Notes under the pieces: generated by a model
What the model saw: only the letters and a program-made list of their open reading frames with translations
Database searches by the model: none
Told to the model about the DNA's origin: nothing
NCBI RefSeq assembly: GCF_900111115.1
Contig: NZ_FOGD01000001.1
Location: forward strand, 366,910-430,909
DNA length: 64,000 nucleotides
Source of the DNA: Giesbergeria anulus
GTDB taxonomy: Bacteria; Pseudomonadota; Gammaproteobacteria; Burkholderiales; Burkholderiaceae_C
Reading direction: 5' to 3'
Program-made: the position numbers and the translations under genes
Shown here: piece by piece, positions 605 to 39,784 of the stretch
Layout of the letters: every line of letters starts with the position of its first letter
Numbering within the stretch: position 1 is the stretch's first letter

Positions 605-626
605 GTGATTCAGTCCTAAAGACCGA

Positions 627-10840: not shown

Positions 10841-10869
10841 CTGACAAGCCGCACCGATACTGCTATGCT
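10841..10869 (+). promoter_or_regulatory. candidate sigma-70 promoter of katG
   Basis: CTGACA (10841-10846), a 17-base spacer and TATGCT (10864-10869), about 94 bases before the katG start. katG is usually OxyR-controlled, but I could not define a convincing OxyR site. Confidence 0.45.
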
Positions 10870-10950
10870 GTTTTACACATTAGGCAGCCGGTAGCCATAT
10901 GACCACAATCAGCTAAGGCCGCCTGGTGCAACCAAGACCCAGAATCCTAA

Positions 10951-13137
<2,187 letters not shown>

Positions 13138-19707: not shown

Positions 19708-22700
19708 ATGAGCACCCACACAGCACCCCTGCCCCTTAGCAAAAATCAATGCCTCAAAGAATGGCTTTTGCTGCTGTCTGGGTTGCTGTTGCTGGGTAGT
19801 TTTATTGGCTGGTCTCTTTGGACGGAACACAAAGAAACCACCCAGCGCGAGCGCCAACGCCTGCAAAGTCAGGCGCAGATAGTGCACGACAACCTAGGCC
19901 GCCAATTAGAGGCCATCAATATGGCCTTGCTAGATGTGCGTGACACCGTGCCCCGCTGGCGCAGTGCGCCAGAGCAACTGGCACAGGCCAACCAGCAGTT
20001 GCGCACCATCGCCAACGCCATGACAGGCATTCGCACCATGACGGTACTCAACGCCCAAGGCATTGTTGAGGCCGCCAGCCGTGCAGAAATTATTGGCCTC
20101 GATTACAGCCAACGCAACTATTTTCAAGCGGTGCTGTCCACCCCCAATAGCAGCACCCTCTATGTTGGCGCACCTTTTACCACCACACTCGGCGTGTGGG
20201 CCATGAACGTGGTGCGCATGATCTCTGACGCCGATGGCCGTTTTGCGGGCATCGTCAGCGCAACACTAGACCCGCAAGAGTTTCAGGTGCTGCTCAACTC
20301 GGTGCGCTATGCCCCAGATATCTGGTCATCGCTGGCCCACGGCGATGGGGTCAATTTTATGATGGTGCCCAACCGGCCAGAGCAATCGGGCAAAGATTTG
20401 GCCCAGCCCAGCTCTTTTTTCTCGCAACACTTGGACAGCGGCCTGAGCAGCAATATCTTTACAGGTACTGTCTACGCTACGGGTCAAATAGGGATGCTAG
20501 CCATACACACCATACACCCCCCCAGCTTGAATATGGACAAGCCCTTGGTGGTGGCTGTAGGGCGTGATCTGGAGGCTATCTATGCCGATTGGCAAGCAAG
20601 CGCCAAAGAAACGCTTCTGCTGTTTAGCCTGCTGGCTCTAACGGCCTGCGTCGGCCTCTGGCTGCTACAAAGCCGGCAACAGCGTGCTTGGCTCGTCTAT
20701 GTCAACAACCAAACCGCACTAGACAAGCAAGCCACGGCCCTTGAAGAGCGTTGGCAGGCCGTGATCAATGCCACCAACCAAGGTGTCTGGGACTGGAACA
20801 CGCAAACCAACCAAGTATTTTTCTCCTCCGTCTGGAAATCGATGCTCGGTTATGCCGACAATGAAATTGGAGACCAGCTAGACGAATGGACTTTACGCCT
20901 GCACCCAGACGACCGTGAGCAAGTCTATGCCGACCTGCAACCACACTTAGACGGCAAAGTGGCGTTCTACCAAAACACCCATCGGGTACGCTGTAAAAGC
21001 GGCGGCTATAAATGGATTTTGGATCGGGGCTGCGTCATTGAGCGCGACAGCAACGGCAAGCCAGTGCGGATGGTGGGTATACGCACCGATGTCACCGAGC
21101 AACGCGAACAACAACAACGCCTGCAACGGCTGGCCGAAAACTTGCCCGGCTTTCTCTACCAATACCGCCTCTGTCCTGATGGGCACACCGACATGCCCTA
21201 CGCCAGCCCCGGCATTGAGGATATTTATGGTGTCAGCCCGGAGCAAGTACAAGCAGACGCCAGTCCAGCCTTGGAGCGCATTCACCCCGACGATCAGGCG
21301 CGGGTGCTGGCCAGCATTGAGCAATCGGCCAAAAACATGAGCCCTTGGCACGATGAGTACCGGGTGCTGCACCCCACGTTGGGCGAGCGTTGGGTTAATG
21401 GACAAGCCACGCCACAACCTTGCGACGGCGATTGCATACTGTGGCACGGCTATAACTACGACAGCACAGAGGCCAAAGCCAAGAGCTTGGCACTGCAAAA
21501 AACCGAGCACCTCATGCGCTACATGCTCGATGAGATGCCCATTGGACTGTGCCAAGTCAATGCCAAAGACCAAATTTACTTTCGTAACCGGCGCTTTACC
21601 GAACTGGTAGGCTACAGCGAGGCACAAACCCCCACCCTGACTGCTCTGCGCACCTTGCTACACCCCGATGCACAATACCGCACCGAAAGCTACCAAGCGT
21701 GGATAGAAGCCGTTGACGAGGCCGCACAAACTGGCCGTGAAATCCCACCACAAACATTTTTGTTCTACACCGCCAACGGCCAAGAGCGCACAGTGCAGGT
21801 GGGCGGCATTCGGTTTAACGACAACATACTGATCACCTTTATAGACCATACCGCGCAAAAACAGTACGAAGCCCAACTGCGCCAAGCCAAAGACGCCGCC
21901 GAAGCCGCCAGCCAAGCCAAGAGCGCCTTTGTGGCTAACATGAGCCACGAAATTCGTACCCCCATGAACGCCGTGCTGGGCATGTTGCAATTGCTACAAC
22001 ACACGCAGCTCGATGCCAACCAGCACGATTACACACAAAAAGCCCAAGAAGCAGCCCGATCTTTGTTAGGCATCATCAACGATATTTTGGACTACTCCAA
22101 AGTGGAGGCAGGTAAGCTGGCGCTAGAGACGGTGCCTTTTCGTATGGACCAAGTGCTGCGCAACCTGTCAGTGCTGGTATCTGCTGCTTTGCAGCACAAA
22201 AACATCGAAATGGTGTTCAACATTGACCCACAACTGCCCACCGTCCTGCATGGCGATGGGCCACGACTGCAACAGGTGCTGCTCAACCTGAGCAGCAATG
22301 CCATCAAGTTCACCGAGCATGGCGAAATTGTGTTGCAACTGCGGGTGATAGACACCGATGCCCACCATGCCCGCATTGCTTTTTGCGTGCGTGACACTGG
22401 CATTGGCATTGCACTCGATAGACAACAAGCGATTTTTGAGAGCTTTACCCAAGCTGAAAACTCTACGAACCGCCGCTATGGCGGCACTGGCTTAGGGCTG
22501 GCTATCTGCCAATCGCTGGTCAGCGCCATGGGCGGGCAACTAAGCGTAGAGAGCACGCCGGGCCAAGGTAGCTGCTTTAGTTTTTGTCTTGATTTTTTGC
22601 GCGATGCCGAAACACTGGCACAAGAACAGCAAATCACACAGCAAGAACACAGCATACCCACCGCGTCAGGGCTACATGTCTTGATTGTCGATGACCACGC

Positions 22701-24144
22701 CACCACCCGCGAAGTGCTGTTAGACATTACCCAGTCTTTTGGCTGGCGCGCCGTCGCCGTGGGCAGTGGCAGCGAAGCCCTTGAGCAGACGCGCAACACC
22801 GCACTCACCGATCCTTTCGACTTGGTGTTATTGGACTGGATGATGCCCGGCATGGATGGTTGGGCCACCTTAGAGCAACTGCGCAACCTCTCTCCTGCGG
22901 GCAACTCAGCCAAGGTACTGATGGTCAGTGGCCACGGACGCGAATGGCTAGAGCAGCGGCAAAACACACAAGTACAGCTGCTCGATGGCTATGTGGTCAA
23001 GCCGTTTACGCCCTCCTCGCTGCTCAATGCCGCCATTGAGGCCACCAGTGGGCGGCGACCACCGCTGCCTGCCACCACCAGCCCGGTCATACAGCAGCCA
23101 CTCAAAAACTTACGCATTTTGCTGGTAGAAGACAACCTGCTGAACCAACAGGTGGCGCGTGAACTACTGCTCCATGCCGGAGCGCAAGTGCGAGTAGCCA
23201 ACCACGGCCAAGCAGCCATCGATTTCCTGCAAGAGCAGCCCGATGCCTACGATGTGGTTTTGATGGACATCCACATGCCAGGCATTGATGGTTACCAAAC
23301 TACCCACGTCTTGCGTCAAGACCTGCAACTCACACTGCCGATCATTGCCATGACCGCCAACGCGATGGTCAGCGACCGCGAAGCCTGCCTTGCCAGCGGC
23401 ATGAATGACCATGTCGGCAAGCCGTTTGACATTCAACACTTAGTGACGGTGTTGCGCCACCATTGTGGCCTAGAGAACCTGTCCAACACCCCCAAAACAG
23501 CCACCGACCGCAGCGCAACCACCCAGCAGGATTTGCCCGACTACCCTGCCGAGATGAATTTGCCCCAAGCCTTGGCCCGTGTAGACAACAACCGCGCACT
23601 CTATGCCAAACTGGCACGTAGCTGTGCGCTAGAACAAGCCGATACCCTGAAGCTGGCCGCACAATACTGGCGCAATGGCGATCATGAGGCAGCATTGCGG
23701 GCTATACACACCCTGAAGGGCTTATTGGCTACTTTGGGTGTGCAAGCACTGGCCGATCAAGTGGCGCAAGCCGAGGCCACCCTGCACCACATGGCCGCCA
23801 CTGAAGCAGATATTCAACCCTTGCTGGCGGCGCTAGAAGCACCCTTACAGGTGCAGCTACGGCTGTTGCAGCAACTGGCCGAACAACTGCACCCGGCCGC
23901 CATACAGGCCCGCACAGTGGCACACCACTGCACCCCACAACGCTTGCGCGAACTGCTGCAAGCGCTGCACGAGCCACTGGCCAAACGCCAATTGCGCGCC
24001 CGCAAGCTGCATGAAACCCTACAACAAGAAACCGCCGGACTGGACATAGCAGAACTGGCCTTACTAGCCACCGCCGTAGAACGGCTGGACTTTAAAACGG
24101 CACTGGAACTGGTCGATGAGTTATTGGCAAAAACCACCGCCTAA
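19708..24144 (+). CDS. hybrid sensor histidine kinase (Cache-PAS3-HisKA-HATPase-REC-REC-HPt)
   Basis: A 1478-residue membrane phosphorelay protein. A helix near 12-33 and a second near 300-317 enclose a periplasmic Cache-like sensor domain. Three PAS domains follow (about 347-465, 471-590, 600-720). The dimerisation helix has the phospho-accepting His747 in [15 protein letters not shown]; the ATPase domain has the N-box [11 protein letters not shown] and GTGLGLAI. Two receiver domains carry Asp1043 (LLDWMMPG) and Asp1187 (LMDIHMPG), and an HPt domain carries His1334 ([13 protein letters not shown]). The complete relay resembles BarA/EvgS types. No partner response regulator is adjacent, so its output is unknown. 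Confidence 0.94.
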
Positions 24145-27464: not shown

Positions 27465-27794
27465 TGGCGGAAGGTCAGGGATTCGAACCCTGGAGGGCGG
27501 TAAAGCCCTGCCGGTTTTCCTTACCTGCTATGGTTTTCACCACCAAGAACATGCAAAACATGCCTTGTTTGGGGTCTGGACTTTGCCTTCACCGTGGCCT
27601 ACAAAGGGCTTTAGGTGGGAGCCGTCAAGTCTCTACACGTTCTGCCTCTTTAGATAAAAAAGGGCAGCTTCGCTCGGCGTTACCTCAGCATACGCTAGGG
27701 GCTTCTCCGAATTTGACTCCTTACAGCCTATGCGTTTCCACATAGGCGCTCGATTGAACAAGACCGGTGCAATCGACCACTCTGCCAACCTTCC
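27465..27794 (-). tRNA. serT: tRNA-Ser(UGA), split by a group I intron
   Basis: The two exons are 27760-27794 (35 nt) and 27465-27519 (55 nt, with encoded CCA); joined they give a 90-nt serine tRNA. The acceptor stem GGAAGGT/ACCTTCC is perfect, with G73 then CCA. The D stem is GCA/TGC, the anticodon stem CCGGT/ACCGG with loop CUUGAAA (anticodon UGA), the long variable arm AGGGC/GCCCT, and the T arm CAGGG-TTCGAAT-CCCTG. The anticodon region matches bacterial tRNA-Ser(UGA) exactly (CACCGGTCTTGAAAACCGGC). The gene is interrupted by 240 nt between U34 and G35. It decodes UCA (and probably other UCN codons), so splicing should be essential unless another copy exists. Confidence 0.93.
27520..27759 (-). 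ncRNA. group I intron (Azoarcus-like, IC3 type) in tRNA-Ser
   Basis: The insert starts with G after exon U34 and ends with G (omega-G) before G35, as group I splicing requires. Paired regions can be drawn: P1 from exon CUU with GAG at 27751-27749, giving a U-G splice pair; P2 27747-27739 with 27734-27726, capped by GAAA; P3 GGAG (27720-27717) with CTCC (27621-27618); P6 CTGCC (27667-27663) with GGCAG (27646-27642); P7 ACTT (27630-27627) with AAGT (27583-27580); P8 CACC (27617-27614) with GGTG (27593-27590); P9 TGGT-GAAA-ACCA (27542-27531). Long core stretches such as GTCAAATTCGG, AACGCCGAGC, GTGTAGAGACT and GAAGGC match the Azoarcus tRNA-Ile intron as I remember it. There is no room for an endonuclease. 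Confidence 0.9.
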
Positions 27795-27803
27795 GCAGCC
27801 TAG

Positions 27804-27809
27804 ATTGTA
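27804..27809 (-). promoter_or_regulatory. -10 element of the tRNA-Ser promoter
   Basis: TACAAT on the minus strand ends 9 bases before the mature tRNA 5' end. A good -35 box at 17 bases was not seen (GAAGAG at that position). Confidence 0.4.
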
Positions 27810-27878
27810 ACCACTTTACAGGCACCCTCTTCAGTCAGTACCAAAGGTGCGGCACCATGCCAACTACCACTGTGGCTT

Positions 27879-30338
27879 TCAAGCGCTAGCCGCCCCCAAT
27901 GGGCGGGGGGGTTGTGCCAACAGCAAGAACAACACCGTGGCCCCCAAATAGAGCAGTCCGGTAATCGCCAACCCCGACGCCGCGCCCACTGAGGCAAACA
28001 AAGCACCAATCAACAACGGGCCAATCATCTGGCCGAGTTTGTCTGCGGCCCGCTGCACACCCATCGCTTTGCCCATGCCCATCTCTTGCACCGCGTGCAA
28101 ATTGAGGGCAAAGGCAGACTGCGCTGCCCCCGCCAAGGAACTGGCCAACCCCAGTGCAAAAACCGACAAGGTGATAGCAAACAGGCTGTTGTCAAAAAAC
28201 AGATAAATCATGCCCAGCGACCCAACCAGCCCCCCCAGCACGATAAATTTCTTTTTGCTGTCCGAGGCATCGACATAGCGGCCCAAAAATGGCCCCAGAT
28301 AAATCACTGACAAGCCATAGATCATCATGATGCGACCAATACTGGACTGGCTCACCCCCTGATCGACCAAAAACAGCGGCAGTGTGAAATACAGCAGCCC
28401 CACTTGGGCCACCGAAAAAGGCACCACACTGCCCAGCATCAGCAAGGCAAAGTTTCGATCACCCAGCAGTTGCCGCACACTGGGCCAATCGAGTTTGCGT
28501 GAGGGCTGCACCGCTTGCGCACCCATGCCACTGGGCAACCCAAAATAAGGACGCATGTACATCAGCACAAACAGGCCGGGCAACAAACTCAGGGCCGCAC
28601 TGAACAAAAACACCATGGTGTAACCGACTTGCTGTGCCAGCATGGCCCCCACAGCACTGCCACAAATATGGCCCGCAAAAATACCGGCCACCAAATGCGC
28701 CATGCCTTGGGCGCGGGTCTGGGGCGTAGCCCAGAGCACGATAAAGCCCTGAATCCCCATCCAAGCCAAGCCATAACCCGCCCCCACCAACGCCCGTGCC
28801 ATCATGAAAGTCCAGACGTTGTCCGCAGCACTGGAAAACAAGGCCCCAGCCAAGCTAATCACCACACCAGCAAGAAACGGCACATGCCAACCACGGCGGT
28901 CTGTCAGGGCACCCGCCACCAGCGCCGTGACCAGCGCGCACAGCATTTCTACCGACAAAGGTAGTGCCAGCACGACATGCTCCGACAAGCCCAGAATCGG
29001 GGTGTAAATCTCCCGCATGCGCAGTGGGATAAAAGACAGGGGCAAGGCCCAAGCCAACAGCAACAAAAATGCCGTTGGCCGCCCCAATACATGGCGACCA
29101 TCATCTGATGGGGTGGGCTGTGGCTGATTCGCAGGCTGTGCCGCTGGGGGCTGACGACGCATCAACACCCCAAGCAAAACAAAAAGCTCAATCACCCACA
29201 GGATAGACAGCAATACCACGGTGCCAGCATCAAGCAAACGCTGGCGCGCCCCAGCAGCGATGGCCGCACCATCCAGATGCACCCGCAAACTGCCTATTTG
29301 TGGCCCGCCTGCGACGTGGAAAGCGGTAGTCAGATCGAGTGCCGAATCCAGCGGTAGCGCTGGCGGTCGCTTTTCTAAGCGCCCCTCCCGATCAACACGG
29401 TACAGCACCGCACCGTCGGCAGCCTGAATCTCCATATAGCCAATTTCTGCGGCCTCATCCATGACACGCTTAAACGGTGCCTCAATGCCCACCAAGCGCT
29501 CGATATGTACGCCCTTATCAAACAAGCGTTGAAAGTCCCGGCCCAAGCGCTGCACAGCGATCTTGGCCGTTTCTTGTACAGCCCCTAGGTACTGCTGGTG
29601 AAAGGTGTGGATGCTGTCCCAAGAGTACACCCCTTGCGCCAGCACCACGACCACAATCGGCAAAGCAAACAAGCGCCAACGGCTCTGGGTACCCATACCA
29701 CTGGCATCACCACTGATTCGCAACAAAGACAAGCCAGCCAACAACACCAAGGCCGCCAGCAAGGCTACCAGCGCCAGCACCAGTACATTGCGCCCCAGAT
29801 GTTCAGACACTGCTTGGGTGATGGTGGCCTCGTGTACCGTCATGGTCAACGCCCCAGCCATCTGGCCCTCGCGGCCTTGGATGGGAAAGACCAGATAGTG
29901 GCGTCCCTGTAACTTGTCCACCACGGGTTTGCTAGCTGCCAGCGTACGGCGCACACTGGTGGCCAAATCGTCCCGCACTGGGGCTTGTCCCACACTTTGG
30001 ATCAAAACCCCTTGCGCATTGGTGACGGCCACGCTAGCAACGGCTGGCAGGTCTTTTTGAATTTGGGTCAGGGTGGCTTTTAGGCCATAAAACTGCTCAA
30101 TCGGCTTACCAAAACTGATGGCCCCCTGAATACGCAGCGCCCAGTCGTGCCCCACCATACGCACTGCGGCGGTGGTCGATTCAAACTGAACCTTGTGCAA
30201 AGCTGCCAGCGTCAGTCCGCCATTGAGCAGCAACACTAACAGTAAAACGGCAAAAAATGCCACAAACAAACGCAAGGTACTCTGGCGCGGTGCAGGAGAA
30301 GGGTTTTGCAGTGCCGGATTAGATGCAGCAGAAGTCAA
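27879..30338 (-). CDS. Cache-sensor/MFS transporter fusion
   Basis: An 819-residue fusion. Helix 1 (21-46), a periplasmic sensor-like domain (about 47-182), helices 2 and 3 (184-206, 222-239), a second periplasmic domain (about 240-368) and helix 4 (370-393) come first. After a Pro/Gln linker, a 12-helix major facilitator domain runs from about 420 to 815. The MFS part keeps DRRGWHVPF after helix 2 and RALVGAGYGLAWMG, typical of drug/metabolite exporters. It is the last gene of the GCS2-SpoIIE-SBP operon, 36 bases after the binding protein gene, and starts with TTG behind an AGAGAG site. Direction and substrate of transport are unknown. Confidence 0.82.
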   Translation of the reverse strand: MTSAASNPALQNPSPAPRQSTLRLFVAFFAVLLLVLLLNGGLTLAALHKVQFESTTAAVRMVGHDWALRIQGAISFGKPIEQFYGLKATLTQIQKDLPAVASVAVTNAQGVLIQSVGQAPVRDDLATSVRRTLAASKPVVDKLQGRHYLVFPIQGREGQMAGALTMTVHEATITQAVSEHLGRNVLVLALVALLAALVLLAGLSLLRISGDASGMGTQSRWRLFALPIVVVVLAQGVYSWDSIHTFHQQYLGAVQETAKIAVQRLGRDFQRLFDKGVHIERLVGIEAPFKRVMDEAAEIGYMEIQAADGAVLYRVDREGRLEKRPPALPLDSALDLTTAFHVAGGPQIGSLRVHLDGAAIAAGARQRLLDAGTVVLLSILWVIELFVLLGVLMRRQPPAAQPANQPQPTPSDDGRHVLGRPTAFLLLLAWALPLSFIPLRMREIYTPILGLSEHVVLALPLSVEMLCALVTALVAGALTDRRGWHVPFLAGVVISLAGALFSSAADNVWTFMMARALVGAGYGLAWMGIQGFIVLWATPQTRAQGMAHLVAGIFAGHICGSAVGAMLAQQVGYTMVFLFSAALSLLPGLFVLMYMRPYFGLPSGMGAQAVQPSRKLDWPSVRQLLGDRNFALLMLGSVVPFSVAQVGLLYFTLPLFLVDQGVSQSSIGRIMMIYGLSVIYLGPFLGRYVDASDSKKKFIVLGGLVGSLGMIYLFFDNSLFAITLSVFALGLASSLAGAAQSAFALNLHAVQEMGMGKAMGVQRAADKLGQMIGPLLIGALFASVGAASGLAITGLLYLGATVLFLLLAQPPRPLGAASA

Positions 30339-30374
30339 AATAGCTCTCTGAGAGCAGCAGCCAATGCGGTTCGA

Positions 30375-31538
30375 TCACTCGATTTTCTGAAAAATCTCAT
30401 CACACGCCAACAAAATATCGACTGGCGGGTCGTAGCTGATGGCTTCGGCTACTTTCAGGTTCAAGGCAATCTTGGCCGGAGCCAGCCAGATTTGCGACAG
30501 TTGACGCGGCTTGGCACCATTAAAAATGCGTGCAATGGTTTCGGCATGAAAATGCCCAACATAGGTGTAGTTGCCTTGAGCGACACTCATCAGCACCCCC
30601 CGCTTGACTTCGCCTTCGCCCAGCATAGAAAACGACGGGCGTTGATAGCGCATCAGCGGCTTAACCACCTTAGGCAAAGACTGGCTATTGAGCCCCCGAT
30701 GCACCGTGAGATACACCGCATCGACTTCCTTGCTAAGTTTTTCGTAGCAAGCCACCACCTTGGCCTCGGCCTCCTGTTGGGGCACATCATTGAAGGGCGC
30801 CAAACAGCGCACCACCTCAAACTTGCGCGCCTTGGCCGTGCGCTCAATCGCATCCACAGCAGCAAAGGTTCTGCCTTCAGGAGAGTCCTCGTACACCAGC
30901 CCCAGCTTGTGAAAGCCAATGATGTCGTGGAAAAGCTCTATCTGCCTTGCATAGCGGTCTGGCTCGACCTTAGCATGGACATGATCGCGCCCAGAGTCTT
31001 GCGCACTGGTAACAATATGGGAGCCAATCGGGTCGCTGGTAGAAGCCACCACCACAGGCACTTGGTGTTGGTCAGTGGCTAAATCTTGGCCCGCCCAAGT
31101 GCCCATTGCAATGACCAGATCGATATCACGCTTGCTGGCCAAACGACCAATCAACTCTGCCTTCACTTTGGGGCGCAAGTCCCGATCAAAGTTGCCTGCG
31201 CTGTAGTAGCCATCAGGAATAAACTCCACATAACGGCTTTTAGCATTTTTGACCAGATAGGCCCAAAATCCACCGGGTGTGGAGTTGTTGTGCTCTGGAA
31301 TATCTAGTGGCTGAATCCAGCCCAGTGCCACCATGCCACGCACGGTGGCTTTCAGGATGACCTCATAGTCGGGGTATTGCCCGCCCTCGTAGTAAGCTAT
31401 TTTCCATTTACCGCCCGGTTTGGCTTTGGGCAAGGTAGAAAAAGTTACTGTTTTAGGGGCATCTGCGGCCAGTACCGGTGCCGGGCCAGCCACACACAGC
31501 GCCAGCATCCACAACATGCCGTGCAAAAAACGTTTCAT
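30375..31538 (-). CDS. ABC-type periplasmic substrate-binding protein (orphan)
   Basis: A 387-residue exported protein with a signal peptide (MKRFLHGMLWMLALCVAGPAPVLA, cleavage before ADAPK). The fold looks like the ABC_sub_bind family (PF04392 type): WKIAYYEGGQYPDYEVI, DLVIAMGTWAGQDLA, VPVVVASTSDPIGSHIV and KLGLVYEDSPEGRTF correspond to its alternating strands. Its ATG overlaps the SpoIIE gene stop as ATGA. No ABC permease or ATPase belongs to this operon, so it may feed the sensor/phosphatase or the MFS fusion rather than an importer; alternatively it could share the importer at 35237-38015. Confidence 0.85.
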   Translation of the reverse strand: MKRFLHGMLWMLALCVAGPAPVLAADAPKTVTFSTLPKAKPGGKWKIAYYEGGQYPDYEVILKATVRGMVALGWIQPLDIPEHNNSTPGGFWAYLVKNAKSRYVEFIPDGYYSAGNFDRDLRPKVKAELIGRLASKRDIDLVIAMGTWAGQDLATDQHQVPVVVASTSDPIGSHIVTSAQDSGRDHVHAKVEPDRYARQIELFHDIIGFHKLGLVYEDSPEGRTFAAVDAIERTAKARKFEVVRCLAPFNDVPQQEAEAKVVACYEKLSKEVDAVYLTVHRGLNSQSLPKVVKPLMRYQRPSFSMLGEGEVKRGVLMSVAQGNYTYVGHFHAETIARIFNGAKPRQLSQIWLAPAKIALNLKVAEAISYDPPVDILLACDEIFQKIE

Positions 31539-33556
31539 AGGCTTGCTTCTGCTTCTTTCTCTGAAGAACGTGCCGCTCCTTGGAAGCGCACCGCCACTAT
31601 GGTGATGTCATCGGACTGTTCGGCCCCTGTAGCATGGGTACGCACATCGGCCATGATGTCCTGCACGATCTGCGCAGCAGTGCGCTGATGGCACTGGGAA
31701 AAAAGTTGGTGCAGGCGCTCATTGCCGTAAAGCTGATAGTCGGCATCCATCGCTTCATTAACGCCATCGGTATACAACAGCAAGCAATCGCCCGTGTGCA
31801 GCTGGGTTTGCATCAGGGTAAATTCAACATCATCGACCACCCCAGCCGCTGGGCCACTGATGCCCCGCAATATTTCCATCTGCCCCCCTTGGCGCAGCAC
31901 CAAGGGTGGGCTGTGCCCGGCATTAGCGAACAGGATATGGCCTGTGCGCACATCAAGCACCCCAATCACCAACGTGACAAAAATACAATTGGGATTATCA
32001 CGACTCAGATCAGCATTGACTCTGCGCAGCATCTGCGCTGGGTCTGACTCACGCTCAGAGGCCACCCGGATGAGCGCCATCGTAATAGCCATAAACAATG
32101 CCGCAGGCACGCCCTTGCCCGAGACATCGCCAATCGTAAAGCACAGGTGATGTTCGTCCAGAAAATAAAAGTTGTAAAGATCGCCACCAATCTCCTTGGC
32201 GGGCACCACCGTAGCAAACAGATCAATCTCAGCCCGCTCTGGAAAGGCAGAGAACATCTTGGGCAGCAGATCCATCTGGATATCGTGGGCCACATTGAGT
32301 TCGCTCTCGATGCGCTGGCGCTGTGAGATGGCCTGCATCAGCCCACGCACATTCTCATGCAGCTTGTTTTCCATAAAAACAAAGGCCCGCGCCAAGCGCC
32401 CAATCTCATCCTTGCGCTCCAGTGGCAGCAGGGCATGACCATCATTGCTCTGGTCAGCGGCAAAATCGGTGTTAGGCAGACCGATGGCATAGTCGGTCAG
32501 GCGGTTCAAGGGACGGGTAAGGTAATGCGCAAAAAGATAAGCCAACACCAATCCGATACTCAAGGCAGCCAGCAAGATGCCCCCCAGACGGGTCATCAAG
32601 TGATGAATAGGGCGCTGCATGGCCTCTACCGACACCAAGGAGGCAATGTACCAGTCAAACGGTTTGATATAAACGGCCCGCCCCTCCAGAGCCATGCTGT
32701 TGGGCAAACTCAAGCCAATAGCCAGTCCGGTGTTTACTTGGGCCAGCTTGCGCAACTCATCAATGGTTTCTACAGACACTTGAGAATACGGCTGATCTTT
32801 TGGAGGCACCACCATCGCGCCCCTACCATCAAAAATAAACACTACCCCACGCCCGTTAGTCAGAATATAGGGCAAATTGCTGATCAGCTCACTGCGCAAC
32901 TGGTCTAACTGGCGCGCTACTTGCGCCTCAACCCGCCCCACATCACCCACAATACCAATCAGCCACTTCCAACGGCGATGTTGCACAAAATGGGCAAATT
33001 TGGCTTGCGTGTTCCCATCTGCGCCCATCCAATGAAAAGACAAGAAAGTCTCACCAAACCGGTCACTTTCTTCCCAAGCCGCAGAAGCCACTTTGCGCCC
33101 TTTGATGTCGTGTAGCTCCTGCAAGGTGCCACCGATTTGGCTGGGTATGGGCGAGAGCAGCACGCGCTGTTGTGCATCGAGCACTAACAAAAAGTTGCTA
33201 TGACCTGGGAGAATTTCTGCCAGCCAACGCTGGGCCATCGCTTGTGCCGCCGACTCACTGACAGCGCCTTGGTCTACCAGTTCGACAAAATGGTCAAGCG
33301 TGGACTGGATCAATTGCGCAAACTCACGCGACTCTTGTTTGCGCGTTTGTATGGTCTCTACCTTGTTTTGCAGCAAGGTGTGATAGCGCCCCCGGATATT
33401 GTCCTCTACCAGTTTAAGCACGTTATGTACGGCACGCGCTTCTGCATCGGTAATTTCTTGCTCTAGGGCGTTTCGGGCAGCACTCATGGTGATGCCCGCA
33501 ATGATGCCCACGACAAGAATGAGTGCCAAGAAAATCCGGGTCTTGATGGAGTTCAT
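31535..33556 (-). CDS. Cache-HAMP-SpoIIE (PP2C-type) phosphatase
   Basis: A 673-residue membrane protein. Helix 1 is at about 5-25, then a double Cache-like periplasmic sensor to about 320, helix 2 (325-345), HAMP (about 346-395), a coiled coil, and a SpoIIE phosphatase domain (about 430-660). The metal-binding aspartates are present: Asp459 in GGDLYNF, Asp477 in GDVSGKG, Asp597 in YTDGVNEA, and Asp649/650 in QSDDITIV. Such proteins dephosphorylate a partner, often an anti-sigma-factor antagonist, but no STAS or anti-sigma gene is nearby. The ATG at 33556 overlaps the upstream GCS2 stop (ATGA), and its own stop overlaps the next ATG in the same way. Confidence 0.9.
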   Translation of the reverse strand: MNSIKTRIFLALILVVGIIAGITMSAARNALEQEITDAEARAVHNVLKLVEDNIRGRYHTLLQNKVETIQTRKQESREFAQLIQSTLDHFVELVDQGAVSESAAQAMAQRWLAEILPGHSNFLLVLDAQQRVLLSPIPSQIGGTLQELHDIKGRKVASAAWEESDRFGETFLSFHWMGADGNTQAKFAHFVQHRRWKWLIGIVGDVGRVEAQVARQLDQLRSELISNLPYILTNGRGVVFIFDGRGAMVVPPKDQPYSQVSVETIDELRKLAQVNTGLAIGLSLPNSMALEGRAVYIKPFDWYIASLVSVEAMQRPIHHLMTRLGGILLAALSIGLVLAYLFAHYLTRPLNRLTDYAIGLPNTDFAADQSNDGHALLPLERKDEIGRLARAFVFMENKLHENVRGLMQAISQRQRIESELNVAHDIQMDLLPKMFSAFPERAEIDLFATVVPAKEIGGDLYNFYFLDEHHLCFTIGDVSGKGVPAALFMAITMALIRVASERESDPAQMLRRVNADLSRDNPNCIFVTLVIGVLDVRTGHILFANAGHSPPLVLRQGGQMEILRGISGPAAGVVDDVEFTLMQTQLHTGDCLLLYTDGVNEAMDADYQLYGNERLHQLFSQCHQRTAAQIVQDIMADVRTHATGAEQSDDITIVAVRFQGAARSSEKEAEASL

Positions 33557-35073
33557 GGGCTGCTGAAAATGGGAGGGCAAGGCACCGCAAGCGCCTGCCG
33601 TGCCTGAATGAGAGCCTGCATTCTAGCGTTGGGGCTGCCCTGCAAGCTGGCATAAGTGGCCAACGCACGATCAGCGCCATTACAACCTTGGCGCAATACT
33701 TGTTCTGGATAGGCCAACATCCAAGTCTCGGTGCTGTCGAGCCCAGCACCAGCCAGCTCCAGCACGTCTTGGCAAAGCGCACGCACCGTCAAGGAACCCA
33801 CCTTGCCTTGCAAGCCTTCTTGCATGGCCGCCGCACGCAAGGCAGGCCATATGGCCCAAGGCCAGCGGGCCACCCACCGACTGGCCTGTTCCAGATTGCG
33901 CAGCAAACCACACTGCAAGGCACTGGGGGCAATCACCACCGAGGCCCCCAGCACATCACCGCCTTCCATAATGTCGCGATCTGGAAAGTTGGCCCCTGGT
34001 GCACGCCCTTCGATGTAACAATAGGCCAAATGGGCCTCCAGCAGGGCTTCAAATTGCTCTGGGCTTTGCCAAGCAGCCCAAAAGCTCTCCAACGAAGGTG
34101 TTTGGTGCAAACCATATCGGATGCGCGCATCCAAAAAATGGGCAAACTGCTGAAACACCAGATGATCCACCGAGGGGTACACCGTAGTGGCGTTATTGTG
34201 TTGTAGGTGCAGTGCTGACCACAACGGCTGGCGCAAATAATCGAGTAAAGCCGGATCACCCACCACGCGGGCCATGTTAGGCGCACCCTTATAATCGCTA
34301 CTGGTGCCATAGGGCACTGGCTGCATACGACTATCTCTACCAAACATCCACTCGAAATAATCGCGCAGATGGGCAAAAGGCCGGGTGGGGAGGCGATGGA
34401 GCCGATCATCAGCGGCAAAACGCGCAGTACTGAACATACGCGGCCACAATGTCAGGCGGTTTTCCTTGTATGCTGTGATCTGGCCGTTTTCAAACGGGCT
34501 GTTGGCAAACAAGGCAATAAAGGCTGGGCTGGCGGCCAATATGACATTAAGGGCCTGTACAGCCTTGGACAGCGGCACCCCAGTAGTGGGGCCGTTTTGC
34601 GCTTTGGCATCAATACCAGCGCTATGGCTCCAGCCACGCTCACGCACCCAGTAATCGTAAATGGCCTTGGGGGCGCGGATGCGTTGGTAGGCCTGCTCAT
34701 CAATCGCCATGGCGGGGTGCTGCGAAAAATTGAGCAGCACAGCATCCTCTTGGGCCAAGGTGGCCAGTACATCGGCCACTTCGTCTCGAATCCAGCCATG
34801 CAGGGTATTTAAACCGCCGGGCTGCTCGACCGTACCCAAAGGCCCCAAGGCACTTTCTAGGTTGTTAAAACCATTGTCCACCGAGCTGTAGCCACGCTGA
34901 CCAGCCACTCCCACAGGCTGGCCGTTGTGGGCCAACTCTAAGCTGGCCGACTCTCCCCGCGCCTGTCTACGGATATACAAGTGAGGAAAAAACTGTTCAA
35001 CAGCATACGAAGCACCATCGCTGCGCCGAGCCACCACCATCTCCAGCTCGACTCCCAATGATGGCGATAGCAT
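33553..35073 (-). CDS. GCS2-type glutamate-cysteine ligase-like protein
   Basis: About 506 residues from the ATG at 35073, placed just before the family's N-terminal PSLGVELEM motif; a GTG 28 codons upstream is also in frame. The GxExE glutamates (Glu9, Glu11), SVDNGFNNLESALGPL, LNFSQHPA and the FANSPFENG...ENRLTLWPRM segment match the GCS2 carboxylate-amine ligase family, ATP-dependent enzymes joining an amino acid or amine to a glutamate carboxyl. The substrate cannot be read, and the enzyme may not be the housekeeping GshA. It leads a four-gene operon with the SpoIIE phosphatase (ATGA overlap), the orphan binding protein and the Cache-MFS fusion. Confidence 0.75.
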   Translation of the reverse strand: MLSPSLGVELEMVVARRSDGASYAVEQFFPHLYIRRQARGESASLELAHNGQPVGVAGQRGYSSVDNGFNNLESALGPLGTVEQPGGLNTLHGWIRDEVADVLATLAQEDAVLLNFSQHPAMAIDEQAYQRIRAPKAIYDYWVRERGWSHSAGIDAKAQNGPTTGVPLSKAVQALNVILAASPAFIALFANSPFENGQITAYKENRLTLWPRMFSTARFAADDRLHRLPTRPFAHLRDYFEWMFGRDSRMQPVPYGTSSDYKGAPNMARVVGDPALLDYLRQPLWSALHLQHNNATTVYPSVDHLVFQQFAHFLDARIRYGLHQTPSLESFWAAWQSPEQFEALLEAHLAYCYIEGRAPGANFPDRDIMEGGDVLGASVVIAPSALQCGLLRNLEQASRWVARWPWAIWPALRAAAMQEGLQGKVGSLTVRALCQDVLELAGAGLDSTETWMLAYPEQVLRQGCNGADRALATYASLQGSPNARMQALIQARQALAVPCPPIFSSP

Positions 35074-35236
35074 GGGCGCTGACAGGTGATGGGTATGAAT
35101 TTCTGACCTCCGGGTGATGAAAACGGCAGACAGGAAGATGTGCCCTATCTTAGACACTCCACTTCTGACAAGGCAAGCCCAAAAGTGGCAGCTCCAGTAT
35201 GCCCGCCTTCCAAGGACAAAAAACCAGCTCGATCAC

Positions 35237-36031
35237 TTAACCCAACAACAAGGCATCATCGGCCAGCTTTTCGCCGCGCACTTTTTCAAACATCTGTAGC
35301 AAATCGGGCACATCCAAACGCTGGCGCTGCTCGCCCGACACATCCAATACCACTTGGCCTTGGTGCAGCATCACGGTACGCTGGCCGACATCCAGCGCCT
35401 GGCGCATACTGTGAGTGACCATCATGGTGGTGAGTTGGTTTTCGGCCACGATACGCGCTGTCAGTTGCAGCACAAAATCGGCGGTGCGCGGGTCTAGTGC
35501 GGCGGTGTGCTCATCGAGCAGCAGAATGCGCGATGGCTGCAAGGCCGCCATCAACAAACTCACAGCTTGGCGTTGCCCGCCTGAGAGCAAGCCAATGCGG
35601 TCGGTCAGGCGGTTTTCCAGCCCCAAGCCCAAGGTGGCCAAACGGGCGCGGAAGGTCTCGCGCTGGTGGGCCTTAACGGCACTGCGCAAGCCACGGATGG
35701 TGCCGCGCTCTTGCGCCAGCGCCATGTTTTCTTCAATGGTCAGGTCTTCACAGGTACCGGCCATCGGGTCTTGAAATACCCGTGCCACCCGCAAAGCTCG
35801 TGCCCACACTGGCTGGCGCGTGACATCGCTACCATCAATGCTGATGGTGCCGCTATCGACCCACTGGTCACCAGAAATAGCATTGAGAAAGGTGGATTTA
35901 CCAGCACCGTTGGAGCCGATGACAGTGACAAACTGCCCAGCCGGAATGCTCAGGGACATACCGCGCAAAGCGCGGGTTTCGATGGGTGTGCCGGGATTGA
36001 AAGTGAGTTGGAGGTTTTTGGCGCTCAACAT
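35237..36031 (-). CDS. ABC transporter ATP-binding protein (ABC_sub_bind-type importer)
   Basis: A 264-residue ABC ATPase with Walker A GSNGAGKST, signature LLSGGQRQAVSLLMA, Walker B ILLLDEHTAALD and the switch histidine TMMVTHS. The DEHTAALD Walker B is characteristic of the ATPase in TrpXYZ-like importers. It follows the permease gene by 21 bases. Reported substrates in this family include tryptophan or tyrosine; here the substrate is unproven. Confidence 0.9.
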   Translation of the reverse strand: MLSAKNLQLTFNPGTPIETRALRGMSLSIPAGQFVTVIGSNGAGKSTFLNAISGDQWVDSGTISIDGSDVTRQPVWARALRVARVFQDPMAGTCEDLTIEENMALAQERGTIRGLRSAVKAHQRETFRARLATLGLGLENRLTDRIGLLSGGQRQAVSLLMAALQPSRILLLDEHTAALDPRTADFVLQLTARIVAENQLTTMMVTHSMRQALDVGQRTVMLHQGQVVLDVSGEQRQRLDVPDLLQMFEKVRGEKLADDALLLG

Positions 36032-36052
36032 AGCAAGGTTCTCCGGTACGCT

Positions 36053-36943
36053 TTATTGGGGGCGGCGTGCCGCTAGTTTGCGTTTAAGCTGGGGAATGAC
36101 CAGCGCCACCGTCACCAACAAGGCGGTGACCAAATTCAGGTCTTGCGCCTTGAGGCCGATGAAATCGCTGTTGAGGGCCAGCGCAATAAAAAAGCGATAG
36201 ACAATCGCGCCAATCACCACGGCCAATGTGGCCAACACCAGCTTGCGCGATGGCAAGATACTCTCGCCCACAATCACGGCTGCCAAGCCAATGACAATGG
36301 TGCCAATGCCCATAGAAATATCCGCGCCGCCTTGGGTCTGGGCAAACAGAGCACCCGCCAATCCCACCAAGCCATTGGATACTGCCATCCCTAACAGCAC
36401 CATTGCACCAGTATTGATGCCTTGGGCGCGAGCCATGCGCGCGTTCGAGCCGGTGGCCCGAATAGCCAAGCCGCGCTCAGTGGCAAAAAACCAATCCATC
36501 GCCAGCTTGGTAGCCAGCACGATCACCGCCAAAATCAAGGGTCGGGCCACATAATCACTCATACCCTCTGGTTGCAACAAGGTCAGCAACGTGGGGTCGT
36601 TGATAAGGGGCACATTGGGGCCACCCATGATGCGCAAATTGATCGAGTACAGCGCAATCATCATCAAAATGCTGGCCAGCAAATCCATGATTTTGAGCTT
36701 GACGTTAAGCCAACCCGTAATCAGTCCGGCCAGCGCACCGGCAGCCATTGCCGCCAAGGTAGCCACATAGGGATTGGTACCTGACGAAATCAATATAGCG
36801 CAGACGGCACCACCGAGCGGAAAACTGCCATCGACCGTCAGGTCTGGAAAGCGCAGCAAGCGGAACGAGATAAACACGCCCAGCGCCACAAGGCTAAAGA
36901 TGAGGCCGATTTCAACGGCACCCAACAGGGAAAAAAGGGACAT
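36053..36943 (-). CDS. ABC transporter permease (branched-chain/TrpY-like)
   Basis: A 296-residue permease with about eight helices, starting MSLFSLLGAVEIGLIFSLVALGVFISFR and including LRFPDLTVDGSFPLGGAV, the hallmark of permeases paired with ABC_sub_bind proteins. I chose the ATG at 36943; the longer frame upstream reads through the intercistronic hairpin and has no family resemblance. It lies 21 bases upstream of the ATPase gene. Confidence 0.9.
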   Translation of the reverse strand: MSLFSLLGAVEIGLIFSLVALGVFISFRLLRFPDLTVDGSFPLGGAVCAILISSGTNPYVATLAAMAAGALAGLITGWLNVKLKIMDLLASILMMIALYSINLRIMGGPNVPLINDPTLLTLLQPEGMSDYVARPLILAVIVLATKLAMDWFFATERGLAIRATGSNARMARAQGINTGAMVLLGMAVSNGLVGLAGALFAQTQGGADISMGIGTIVIGLAAVIVGESILPSRKLVLATLAVVIGAIVYRFFIALALNSDFIGLKAQDLNLVTALLVTVALVIPQLKRKLAARRPQ

Positions 36944-36960
36944 GGTGCAACGGCAAGGAA

Positions 36961-37001
36961 GCAAAAAATAAAGCAGGAGCCAGACATTGCATGACTCCTG
37001 C
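36961..37001 (-). terminator. intercistronic terminator/attenuator
   Basis: A GCAGGAG/CTCCTGC stem (37001-36995 with 36979-36973 on the minus strand), a 15-base loop, then TTTATTTTTT. It lies between the binding-protein gene and the permease gene, a common way to make more binding protein than membrane parts. Confidence 0.7.
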
Positions 37002-37049
37002 ACAGCAGAAGGGGCAACCAGTACGGCACCCCGACAAAACAACGCTACT

Positions 37050-38015
37050 TTACTTCACGACTTGGGCAGCAGACTTGATGAGGGCCTCTGACAACTTGAC
37101 GCCCTGTTTTTCTGCCGCGCCGGGATTGACAAACAATTCCATTTTTGTACTTACTTCGGGCTTGATGTCACCGGGCTTCTCACCCTTGAGGATACGAACC
37201 ACCATGCGGCCTGTTTGTTCGCCCAAATCGCGGTAGTTGATGCCAAAGGCCGCCACGGCACCACGCTTGACGCTGTCGGTATCGGCAGCCACCAAGGGCA
37301 ATTTGGCTTCTTGACCCACCTTGACCAAAGCCTCGTAGGCCGAGACCACATTGTTGTCGGTGCTGGTGTAAATCACATCCACCTTGCCGATCAGGCTGCG
37401 CGCAGCGCTGCCCACGTCCACCGAGCGCGGCGCAGCCGCCTCGACCAAGGTCATGCCCAGCTTGGGCAGCAGTGCCTGCAACTGCTTAACCACCACCACC
37501 GAGTTAGCCTCGCCGGGGTTGTAAACCATACCGACGCGCTTGGCACCGGGCACCACTTGTTTGACCAAGTCCATTTGTTTGTCCAGCGCCAGCAGGTCTG
37601 ACACCCCGGTCACATTGGTTTTGGATGGCTCCCAACTGGCCAGCAGCTTGGCAGCCACCGGGTCGGTCACGGCAGAAAACACCACCGGCACCGTTTTGCT
37701 AGAAGCCACCACGGCTTGGGCCGAGGGGGTGGCAATGGCCACGATGGCATCAGGCTGGTCGCCAATAAACTTGCGTGCAATTTGTGCTGCCGTGCCCGTG
37801 TTGCCTTGGGCGCTCTGGTATTGCCACTTCAGGTTTTTACCCGATTCAAAGCCTGCCTCTTTCAGCGCTGCCTGCACACCGTCGCGCACTGCGTCCAGCG
37901 CCGGATGCTCCACAATGGCAGTAACAGCCACCGATTTTTGTTGGGCGCTGGCCGGAGCCACTGCCGCTACCGCCAAAGCAATAGCACCGAAAGCCATCCA
38001 AGGCAATTTTTTCAT
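37050..38015 (-). CDS. ABC transporter substrate-binding protein (ABC_sub_bind family)
   Basis: About 321 residues from the ATG at 38015, which starts a clear signal peptide (MKKLPWMAFGAIALAVAAVAPASA before QQKSV). The mature part has the family's VTAIVEHPALDAVRDG start, then IARKFIGDQPDAIVAIATPSAQA, VPVVFSAVTDPVAAKL and RVGMVYNPGEANS. It is the first gene of a complete importer with the permease and ATPase genes downstream. It belongs to the same general family as the orphan binding protein at 30375. Confidence 0.92.
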   Translation of the reverse strand: MKKLPWMAFGAIALAVAAVAPASAQQKSVAVTAIVEHPALDAVRDGVQAALKEAGFESGKNLKWQYQSAQGNTGTAAQIARKFIGDQPDAIVAIATPSAQAVVASSKTVPVVFSAVTDPVAAKLLASWEPSKTNVTGVSDLLALDKQMDLVKQVVPGAKRVGMVYNPGEANSVVVVKQLQALLPKLGMTLVEAAAPRSVDVGSAARSLIGKVDVIYTSTDNNVVSAYEALVKVGQEAKLPLVAADTDSVKRGAVAAFGINYRDLGEQTGRMVVRILKGEKPGDIKPEVSTKMELFVNPGAAEKQGVKLSEALIKSAAQVVK

Positions 38016-38033
38016 CACGCAACATCTCCAAGG

Positions 38034-38058
38034 TAAAAATGGCCTGCACAACAGGCCA
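38034..38058 (-). terminator. terminator of the ETF-QO gene
   Basis: GGCCTG (38041-38046) pairs with CAGGCC (38052-38057) around a 5-base loop. On the minus strand this is followed by ATTTTTACC. It lies between the ETF-QO stop and the start of the ABC importer operon. Confidence 0.7.
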
Positions 38059-38077
38059 ACAAAGCGCAAGGCACGGT

Positions 38078-39784
38078 TTACATGCCAGAGTAGTTGGGGC
38101 CGCCACCGCCTTCGGGCGTCACCCAGACGATATTTTGCGTCGGATCTTTGATGTCGCAGGTCTTGCAATGCACACAATTTTGCGCGTTGATTTGCAAGCG
38201 CTGGGCACTGCTGCCTTTGGCCTCATCGGGCACAAACTCGTACACCCCTGCCGGGCAATAGCGCGTCTCTGGGCCAGCGAATTTTGCCAGATTGATATTC
38301 ACGGGCACGCTGGCATCTTTCAATGTCAGGTGGGCAGGCTGGTTTTCGGCATGGTTGGTGTTGCTGATGAACACGCTAGACAGGCGGTCAAAGGTGAGCT
38401 TGCCATCGGGCTTGGGGTAGTCGATGGGGGTGCATTCTGACGCTGGCTTGAGGTAGGCGTGGTCGGGTTTGTCGCGGTGCAGCGTCCAAGGGATATTGCC
38501 CTTGAGCACAAACTGCTCTAGCCCGTTCATCACGGTGCCGACGGTCAAGCCCTTCTTAAACCACGCCTTAAAGTTACGCGCCTTGTTCAACTCGGTGTGC
38601 AGCCAGCTATTTTCAAAAGCACGCGGGTAGGCACTCAACTCATCGTGCTGGCGGCCTGCCACCAAGGCATCGTAGGCGGCTTCGGCGGCCAACATGCCGG
38701 TCTTGATGGCGGCATGGCTGCCCTTGATACGGCTGACATTCAAGTAACCAGCATCACACCCCACCAAGGCCCCACCGGGAAACACGGTTTTAGGCAATGA
38801 GAGCAAACCACCGGCGGTAATGGCGCGCGCGCCATAGCTGATGCGCTTGGCCGGTTTGATGCCTTGTTCGGCGTTGCCTTCAAGGTAGTAGCGGATGTTG
38901 GCGTGCGTCTTCCAGCGTTGGAATTCTTCAAACGGGCTCAGGTACGGGTTGCTGTAGTCCAGCCCGGTGATAAAGCCCAGTGTGACCTTGTTGTCTTCCA
39001 TGTGGTACAGGAACGAGCCGCCGTAGGTGTTGCTGTCCATCGGCCAACCTGCGGTGTGCATCACAAAGCCGGGCTGGTGGCGTTTGGGGTCAATTTCCCA
39101 TAATTCTTTGATACCGATACCGTAGGTTTGTGGATCGCGGCCTGCGTCCAGATGGAACTTGGCGATGAGCTGTTTGCCCAAATGGCCGCGTGCGCCCTCA
39201 GCAAACAGGGTGTACTTGGCGTGCAGTTCCATACCGAGCTGAAAATCGCCAGTAGGCTCACCTTCTTTGCTGATGCCCATGTTGCCGGTAGCCACACCCT
39301 TGACCGAACCATCATCGTTGTACAACACTTCAGCAGCGGCAAAACCGGGGAAGATTTCTACGCCCAAATTTTCGGCCTGCTGGCCTAGCCAGCGCGTCAC
39401 GTTGCCCAAACTGACAATGTAATTGCCGTGGTTTTGAAAGCATTGCGGCAGCAAAAAATCGGGGGTACGAATGGCCGATTTTTCGCCCAAAAAGATCATC
39501 GCGTCTTCGGTCACGGGCTGGTTCAGTGGCGCGCCCAGTTCTTTCCAATTGGGGAGCAACTCCGTCAGGGCCTTGGGGTCCATGATGGCCCCCGATAGGA
39601 TATGCGCGCCCGGCTCCGAGCCTTTCTCTAGCACCACCACAGAGACGTCTTGGCCTTTCTCTGCCGCCAATTGCTTGAGGCGAATGGCAGCAGATAGGCC
39701 CGCAGGCCCGCCCCCCACCACGACCACGTCGTATTCCATCGCCTCGCGGGGGCCGTACTCGGCCAAGATTGCTGCATTATTCAT
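38078..39784 (-). CDS. electron transfer flavoprotein-ubiquinone oxidoreductase
   Basis: A 568-residue inner-membrane-associated FAD/4Fe-4S enzyme that passes electrons from ETF, reduced by acyl-CoA and other dehydrogenases, to ubiquinone. The FAD-binding GGGPAG lies at residues 24-29. The C-terminal cluster ligands are in CPAGVYEF and NCVHCKTC, ahead of the conserved QNIVWVTPEGGGGPNYSGM end. Length is normal. It stands alone on the minus strand and is divergent from the TSUP gene over about 280 bases. Confidence 0.96.
   Translation of the reverse strand: MNNAAILAEYGPREAMEYDVVVVGGGPAGLSAAIRLKQLAAEKGQDVSVVVLEKGSEPGAHILSGAIMDPKALTELLPNWKELGAPLNQPVTEDAMIFLGEKSAIRTPDFLLPQCFQNHGNYIVSLGNVTRWLGQQAENLGVEIFPGFAAAEVLYNDDGSVKGVATGNMGISKEGEPTGDFQLGMELHAKYTLFAEGARGHLGKQLIAKFHLDAGRDPQTYGIGIKELWEIDPKRHQPGFVMHTAGWPMDSNTYGGSFLYHMEDNKVTLGFITGLDYSNPYLSPFEEFQRWKTHANIRYYLEGNAEQGIKPAKRISYGARAITAGGLLSLPKTVFPGGALVGCDAGYLNVSRIKGSHAAIKTGMLAAEAAYDALVAGRQHDELSAYPRAFENSWLHTELNKARNFKAWFKKGLTVGTVMNGLEQFVLKGNIPWTLHRDKPDHAYLKPASECTPIDYPKPDGKLTFDRLSSVFISNTNHAENQPAHLTLKDASVPVNINLAKFAGPETRYCPAGVYEFVPDEAKGSSAQRLQINAQNCVHCKTCDIKDPTQNIVWVTPEGGGGPNYSGM

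Follow-up and report, generated by a model that had tools for sequence, protein, structure and literature searches.

The window analysed here, a 64,000-nucleotide stretch of the Giesbergeria anulus genome (contig NZ_FOGD01000001.1, positions 366,910 to 430,909), encodes on its minus strand a cassette of four genes: a GCS2-family amide ligase, a SpoIIE-type sensor phosphatase, a PF04392-type binding protein and a fusion of a membrane sensor with a major facilitator superfamily (MFS) transporter (Table 1). The four genes almost certainly constitute one working unit. Its genes lie side by side and have stayed together, the cassette appears to be horizontally mobile, and we see about an even chance that it serves to make, export and sense a molecule derived from amino acids, with signalling as the first choice of use. 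A first-pass annotation of the window had argued that the products of the coupled genes belong together, and this is borne out by a neighbourhood kept in distant groups and in several orders, as well as by a single open reading frame (ORF) joining the MFS and SpoIIE proteins in one locus (L038; loci are numbered L and genomes G throughout). The same annotation recognised no known system in the set; as far as we searched, the genes are not rarely neighbours and no characterised match emerged, and a full-text search of the open-access literature, judged by titles and abstract openings, found no description of the four-gene combination.

Conservation of the cassette

In a genome-neighbourhood survey, co-occurrence was seen from three starting points: the binding protein, the sensor-MFS fusion and a protein family here called X5. 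The binding-protein survey, a contig scan with a two-row alignment, yielded 69 loci; it relied on two peptide patterns and is therefore biased to close relatives, many of the loci are short contigs, and one (L103) is a marginal, 28% match. Searched by tblastn with the window genes, 13 of the 69 loci (L035-L039, L041-L047 and L101) contained GCS2, binding protein and sensor-MFS, and 11 of these 13 also the SpoIIE gene (in pieces in L036 and L037). The full four-gene set spans alpha-, beta- and gammaproteobacteria.

The genes are arranged in several ways. The order GCS2, SpoIIE, binding protein, MFS of the window is also that of L035, L036, L039 and L101, while L037 and L038 have GCS2, binding protein, MFS, SpoIIE. 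In L042, L044-L046 and a plasmid locus (L033), SpoIIE-binding protein converges on MFS-GCS2, and in L041 MFS-GCS2 diverges from SpoIIE-binding protein. Two sub-operons thus recur in L033, L041, L042 and L044-L046, SpoIIE with the binding protein and MFS with GCS2, and these pairs would fit a sensing half and a making and exporting half.

A GCS2 search of 398 genomes of the phylum returned a match in 193; those listed outside the window were weak (best E 1.8e-9) and are taken to be ordinary glutamate-cysteine ligases. As this search was useless for co-occurrence, new surveys were begun with X5 and with the sensor half of the fusion as queries, which were found in 21 and 48, respectively, of 241 genomes of the class to which G785 belongs. 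Seventeen X5 places were examined together with their flanks (six more belonged to loci covered before, and two G925 fragments were left out), and 14 of them had both sensor-MFS and binding protein, at 7 kb from X5 in L172; a sensor gene was present at 11 of the 14, encoding SpoIIE in nine and a Cache-kinase in two. Thirty further sensor-MFS places, all outside the loci read earlier, included 25 with a binding-protein homologue, and a label search found GCS2, DapF-like, racemase, Ddl-like or DUF1611 genes at 13 of the 30, L223 among them. That the genes are chance neighbours without a common task, as the lack of the operon in most relatives might suggest, is extremely improbable given their recurrence in distant groups, in different orders and from three starting points; for the binding protein and the sensor-MFS fusion, the X5 and sensor-MFS surveys already oppose it.

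Exchange of the enzymes

A second form of the cassette, version B, was found mostly in Desulfobacterota, gammaproteobacteria of marine hosts and Hahella. Here the same binding protein and sensor-MFS fusion are joined by a DapF-like epimerase (PF01678) and an Orr-like Ala_racemase_N protein; X5 and a sensor, either a dCache hybrid histidine kinase or a SpoIIE protein, complete the set, to which some loci add a Ddl-like ATP-grasp ligase. At the further sensor-MFS places, Pfam named AstA (L212) and a formyltransferase (L203), confirmed DUF1611, alanine racemase, DapF-like and GCS2 proteins, and gave no family for two neighbours (L204, L215). In L206 GCS2 is accompanied by a DapF-like epimerase as well as a full alanine racemase, and L207 is similar in appearance; these two loci bridge the GCS2 version and version B. 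With bit-score cut-offs of 80 and 200, at least one of six amino-acid enzymes was present in 31 of the 33 binding-protein loci with sensor-MFS, compared with 4 of the 36 without, the 36 including short contigs and L103. The exceptions are L052 and L056, which lack such an enzyme, and the X5 loci L061, L072, L075 and L057, the last with an MFS fragment at the edge. By eye, a protein of about 410-440 amino acids between binding protein and sensor-MFS looks alike in four loci (L204:6425-7654, L205:11263-12492, L208:6466-7698 and L213:5146-6480); that of L204 has no Pfam match, and the protein is perhaps another exchangeable enzyme.

X5 has about 530 amino acids (e.g. L049:11170-12870) and is encoded in 16 of the 69 binding-protein loci and in L158-L174. 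GCS2 occurs in 13 of the 69, and the two were never found together, neither in these loci (0/69) nor at the 17 X5 places (0/17). Invariant residues of X5 include H94, G96 and a GTxFFWG-like stretch. The protein has no Pfam or NCBIfam family, only stray single matches, and no sequence match in the PDB, and a BshC sequence profile compared with 11 X5 members was not listed at E up to 10. A structural model was confident (pLDDT 84.9); Foldseek returned nothing from the PDB at E<=0.001, and a second aligner placed BshC of Bacillus subtilis at the top (4wbd; Z 16.0, root-mean-square deviation (rmsd) 4.2, 377 residues aligned), followed by class I LysRS (1irx; Z 11.7), with all others at or below 5.1. 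In bacillithiol synthesis, BshC is the putative enzyme for the addition of cysteine. Because the modelled fold of X5 resembles BshC, GCS2 and X5 may do similar jobs with unrelated folds.

The idea of the first-pass annotation that the ligase makes or modifies a glutamyl compound is not required by these data, since other copies carry X5, Ddl-like, AstA or DUF1611 proteins plus racemases instead. Receptor, transporter and sensor are constant while the synthase varies, as would be expected of a family of signals more than of a nutrient system. With slightly less than even confidence, we propose an undescribed cassette family in which a fixed chassis (PF04392 receptor protein, Cache phosphatase or kinase sensor, sensor-MFS exporter) bears an exchangeable synthase (GCS2, X5, Ddl-like, AstA or DUF1611, with racemases) for a lineage-specific signal, perhaps one containing a D-amino acid.

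The same enzymes could be read as serving an exported metal- or redox-active molecule, an opine-type metallophore or low-molecular-weight thiol, whose loaded form would be sensed to adjust production. The DapF-like racemase and MFS exporter recall CntK and CntE, which fill these roles for staphylopine, and both GCS2 and X5, the latter through its BshC-like fold, resemble in kind the enzymes that add cysteine in thiol biosynthesis. Metallophore clusters combining a racemase with an MFS protein are known (PMC7438024). We nevertheless judge this reading unlikely, as no importer is a constant partner: tblastn matches to an ATP-binding cassette (ABC) ATPase occur in some loci only (L039, L041, L074, L077, L080, L082, L084, L087 and L102) and are mostly generic, at 24-31%, with one neighbour cluster in 10 loci. 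The scanned proteins contained no TonB receptor. Pfam, run on part of the neighbours, named no homologue of CntL or CntM, and variants with AstA, DUF1611 or a formyltransferase do not point to chelators.

Ligase, phosphatase and a putative partner switch

The window ligase matches GCS2 (PF04107) with E 1.2e-9 and 38.4 bits, above the Pfam gathering score of 21; with the NCBIfam models for glutamate-cysteine ligase proper and YbdK it reached at most 24 bits and did not pass their cut-offs of at least 176. In an alignment of 16 sequences, with gaps allowed in at most two rows, E9, E11, E73, E355 and R357 are invariant, acidic and arginine residues that have a catalytic role in GCS2 enzymes. For the sensor phosphatase, Pfam reported SpoIIE (E 5.5e-51), dCache_2 (4.1e-19) and HAMP (1.4e-6), and its SpoIIE domain has all four PP2C motifs, of known role in these phosphatases: GGDL, GDVSGKG, TDGV and DDIT. 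All four patterns were matched by 16 of 27 SpoIIE sequences, the window's included; the L037 match was too short for this count. Ten Desulfobacteria sequences match two patterns, and the five inspected carry the variants GDVSDKG or GDVSHKG and DDIA. Ligase and phosphatase both look active from their sequences, as the acidic and arginine positions of the former are invariant and the four PP2C patterns of the latter are present.

Five STAS and three RsbW-like neighbours served as seeds for profiles that were run on 70 loci and the window. STAS genes were found in eight loci (L036, L039, L041, L046, L052, L060, L062 and L101, five of them profile seeds) and RsbW-like genes in five (L036, L039, L041, L046 and L101, three of them seeds); a ninth, weak STAS match in L040 lies inside a long frame of another kind. 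The genome of the window has a STAS/RsbW pair on another contig, where the kinase is of the HATPase_c_2 family, and two strong SpoIIE domains, one of which is the cassette's. By inference, the STAS and RsbW genes likely partner the cassette phosphatase. The NCBIfam SiaA model matched the SpoIIE protein with 78.9 bits, far under its cut-off of 700.

The binding protein and its company

The binding protein has a signal-peptide-like N-terminus, as judged by eye, matches ABC_sub_bind (PF04392) with E 3.1e-15 and shares 23% identity with the TrpX-like paralogue of its own genome. It did not pass the NCBIfam TrpX cut-off of 390 bits (63.1 bits), a strict limit that the TrpX-like protein of the same genome (252.7 bits) fails too. 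From 33 binding-protein loci with little or no sensor-MFS, 19 membrane-sensor-like neighbours were chosen by hand, a sample that gives no rate; if none is counted twice, they comprise 12 kinase ATPases, three chemoreceptors, three SpoIIE proteins and one GGDEF/EAL protein. As the chosen neighbours are sensors of these kinds, the binding-protein family is tied to signalling more widely than to the cassette. The first-pass annotation had the binding protein present a ligand to membrane sensors, and of this its genomic company with sensors was seen, in the 19 neighbours.

A quick tree of 97 binding proteins contained one GCS2-linked group of 16 rows (SH-aLRT 97), 15 with GCS2 and one apparent loss (L040), which mixes alpha-, beta- and gammaproteobacteria; the GCS2 state changes twice on this tree, compared with 14.2 times in shuffles. 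With 28 more rows, including five Desulfobacteria GCS2 loci, all 20 GCS2 rows fell within 21 rows on a weak branch (64), and the next larger set, of 26 rows, had a support of 98. The pattern is consistent with a single GCS2 lineage that travels as one block. L037, a cyanobacterium according to its label, nests with Competibacteraceae on the tree, and its bin is probably mislabelled.

The claim of the first-pass annotation that the binding protein comes without an ABC transporter is right for the four genes themselves, whereas a complete TrpX-like/permease/ATPase set is present on the same strand, 163 bases upstream. This set was considered as the missing transporter and dismissed, because elsewhere the cassette comes without the TrpX-like and permease genes: tblastn found no TrpX-like or permease match beside the 13 GCS2-type loci, and generic ATPase matches only in L039 and L041. 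The TrpXYZ-type set is also one of the points for an uptake or catabolic system, in which the MFS protein would import an amino-acid compound, the enzymes degrade it and the sensors regulate. PF04392 proteins are import-linked amino-acid binders, and DUF1611/DgcN, which bears an N-acetyltransferase name, is linked to D-glutamate use. Such a system is improbable, as GCS2 and the Ddl-like protein are ATP-using ligases rather than degradative enzymes, no catabolic gene family recurs among the identified neighbour clusters, and the ABC set is not kept beside other GCS2-type copies.

The sensor-MFS fusion

An AlphaFold2 model of the fusion (pLDDT 82.3, 25 aligned sequences) shows a transmembrane helix, a small beta-sheet domain and a further transmembrane helix, twice in succession, and then the transporter, which Pfam matches to MFS_1 (E 9.7e-43). 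Pfam found no Cache match in the fusion and the sensor half had no sequence match in the PDB; a split homologue gave a sub-threshold dCache_1 match, and hhalign with the Cache region of the SpoIIE protein a weak one (26%). The N-terminal half likely consists of two single-Cache-like modules, as modelled. Of the "Cache-MFS fusion" in the first-pass annotation the MFS part is supported by profile and fold; the Cache layout fits in the model and is not proven by the sequence tests. In L038 (4746-9200) sensor-MFS and Cache-SpoIIE share a single open frame of 1484 codons, in a metagenome assembly where a sequencing slip is possible. Seemingly split versions, with a sensor-only gene and an MFS-containing gene, occur in L197, L202, L203, L211 and L214.

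The fold comparison covered residues 409-818 of the model. In it, the DHA1-like transporter half comes closest to VMAT2 (Z 38.7, rmsd 3.2, 386 residues aligned), with SotB, NorA and MdfA (Z 33.4) also near; further entries are SLC37A4 (Z 37.4), MCT10, URAT1, sialin and the peptide importer PepT (Z 33.4). On the question of export or import, left open by the first-pass annotation, these nearest folds favour an exporter for the modelled half; the full list leaves the direction undecided, because facilitators and importers score alike. VMAT2, SotB, NorA and MdfA would also suit detoxification, in which a harmful amine or amino-acid analogue is detected, modified by a ligase, acyltransferase or racemase and expelled by the MFS protein, and the exchangeable modifying enzymes and the patchy, mobile distribution would agree with this. 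The racemases and D-Ala-D-Ala-type ligases suit synthesis better, however, and a dedicated binding protein with an elaborate membrane sensor would, in our judgement, be unusual for resistance; we think detoxification a little less probable still than a metallophore or thiol.

Distribution and points of disagreement

In five genomes of the same genus (L188-L192) a run of genes that we take to be hfq/hflX/hflK/hflC ends at hisZ, and no cassette gene lies within about 13 kb upstream; in a sixth (L187) other genes are found there and the cassette is likewise absent. The window operon looks like a recent, rare acquisition, as GCS2 is missing from nearly all same-genus, family and order genomes examined. 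Among 72,556 plasmid records GCS2 was found once, on the Aureimonas plasmid pAU20a (L033). The annotation of this plasmid places type VI secretion genes and hybrid-kinase/response-regulator genes in the vicinity of its cassette.

Several observations weigh against a made, exported and sensed molecule as the task of a fixed unit. GCS2 is rare, occurring in 2 of 26 same-genus genomes (that of the window and G1037), 1 of 120 family genomes and 2 of 300 order genomes, and the second of the order genomes (L034) has a GCS2 homologue without the other three genes. The SpoIIE gene is missing in 2 of the 13 GCS2 loci (L043 and L047), and L040 retains SpoIIE and binding protein only. In L158, L161 and the short L165, X5 has neither MFS nor binding protein beside it. 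No binding protein was found at 5 of the 30 sensor-MFS places (L195, L201 and L202, as well as L200 and L223, where the MFS gene is at a contig edge), 8 of the 25 found elsewhere share no more than 28-34% identity with the queries (L197, L204, L205, L208, L211-L213 and L224), and a SpoIIE or Cache-kinase gene was labelled in only 8 of the first 25 places. The profile search found no STAS or RsbW gene in the window, and the product, the direction of transport and the role in signalling are all inferred. As a separate observation, the L034 homologue (9916-11391, 44%) has neighbours that resemble, by eye, genes for a patatin-like protein and for parts of a type III secretion system.

The operon in the window

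The four ORFs, both ATGA overlaps and the 36-base gap reported in the first-pass annotation were confirmed at their positions (Table 1). The genes around the cassette are ordinary: hisZ, which is histidyl-tRNA-synthetase-like, lies on one side with genes for adenylosuccinate synthetase and a phosphoribosyltransferase, and the ABC set and ETF-QO lie on the other. No promoter- or terminator-like site is listed on the minus strand between cassette and ABC set (35073-35237), and the two may form one transcript. Just downstream of the operon, a stretch at about 27740-27830 resembles by eye the 5' half of a serine tRNA; ARAGORN lists no tRNA in the window. The opposite strand encodes at 19708-24144 a hybrid histidine kinase of 1478 amino acids with Cache-like, PAS and two receiver domains, for which no link to the operon was seen.

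Table 1 Features of the cassette and its upstream neighbour in the window.
Feature	Position	Strand	Basis
GCS2-family carboxylate-amine (amide) ligase, 506 amino acids	33553-35073	minus	ORF, Pfam, alignment
dCache-HAMP-SpoIIE (PP2C) sensor phosphatase, 673 amino acids	31535-33556	minus	ORF, Pfam, alignment
Cache domain of the SpoIIE gene	~32792-33472	minus	
HAMP domain of the SpoIIE gene	32381-32536	minus	
PP2C domain of the SpoIIE gene	31583-32158	minus	
PF04392-type binding protein, 387 amino acids	30375-31538	minus	ORF, Pfam
Sensor-MFS fusion, 819 amino acids, TTG start	27879-30338	minus	ORF, Pfam, AlphaFold2, fold comparison
Cache-like domains of the fusion, flanked by transmembrane helices	residues ~86-169 and 286-355		AlphaFold2
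MFS domain of the fusion	residues ~412-813		AlphaFold2
ATGA overlap, GCS2 stop/SpoIIE start	33553-33556	minus	
ATGA overlap, SpoIIE stop/binding protein start	31535-31538	minus	
36-base gap, binding protein to sensor-MFS gene	30339-30374	minus	
TrpX-like/permease/ATPase ABC set, complete, upstream	35237-38177	minus (as cassette)	

Proposed mechanism and comparison with known systems

If the cassette serves to make, export and sense such a molecule, the ligase would form an amide bond between an amino acid and another small molecule, and the MFS protein would export the product, with its two periplasmic sensor domains perhaps acting as a gate. Outside, the binding protein would capture the product and present it to the dCache sensor in the manner of LuxP and LuxQ, and the SpoIIE domain of that sensor would dephosphorylate a STAS protein and so shift a STAS/RsbW-type switch. 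As the same chassis bears different enzyme sets elsewhere, each lineage may have its own molecule, and the simplest use would be cell-cell or self signalling. Desulfobacteria, Competibacter relatives and plant-surface alphaproteobacteria, for which few signals are known to us, would then have private-language signalling with a known parts list. Candidate synthases would be named, the signal could be found by comparing the media of ligase and exporter deletions, and both the unnamed family X5 and the sensor-transporter fusion would be linked to a task.

Parts of the cassette have counterparts in known systems. The binding protein belongs to the same superfamily (PF04392) as that of the TrpXYZ ABC importer, the cassette itself having no permease or ATPase, and X5 shares its overall fold with BshC of bacillithiol biosynthesis (Z 16.0), in a different context and without a sequence-profile match. 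Version B resembles the opine zincophore clusters (CntK/L/M/E) in its DapF-like racemase and MFS protein, whereas the cassette has amide ligases and a dedicated sensor, and CntL and CntM were not named among the scanned neighbours. SpoIIE-type partner switches of a membrane PP2C phosphatase, a STAS-like protein and a kinase are known (PMC7647112); the cassette is like these SiaABCD and Rsb systems in its membrane phosphatase, with a STAS-like protein and a kinase as putative partners, and differs in that the kinase found here is HATPase_c_2 and the phosphatase is coupled to a ligase, a transporter and a binding protein. Pairs of a binding protein and a membrane sensor are likewise well known, among them LuxP-LuxQ, TorT-TorS and XylFII-LytS (PMC6321045). 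In these pairs, as in the cassette, a periplasmic binding protein is encoded with a membrane sensor on which it is thought to act; the cassette's binding protein is of the PF04392 type, its sensor is a dCache protein with SpoIIE or HisKA output, and the cassette adds a candidate synthase and a sensor-MFS protein of its own.

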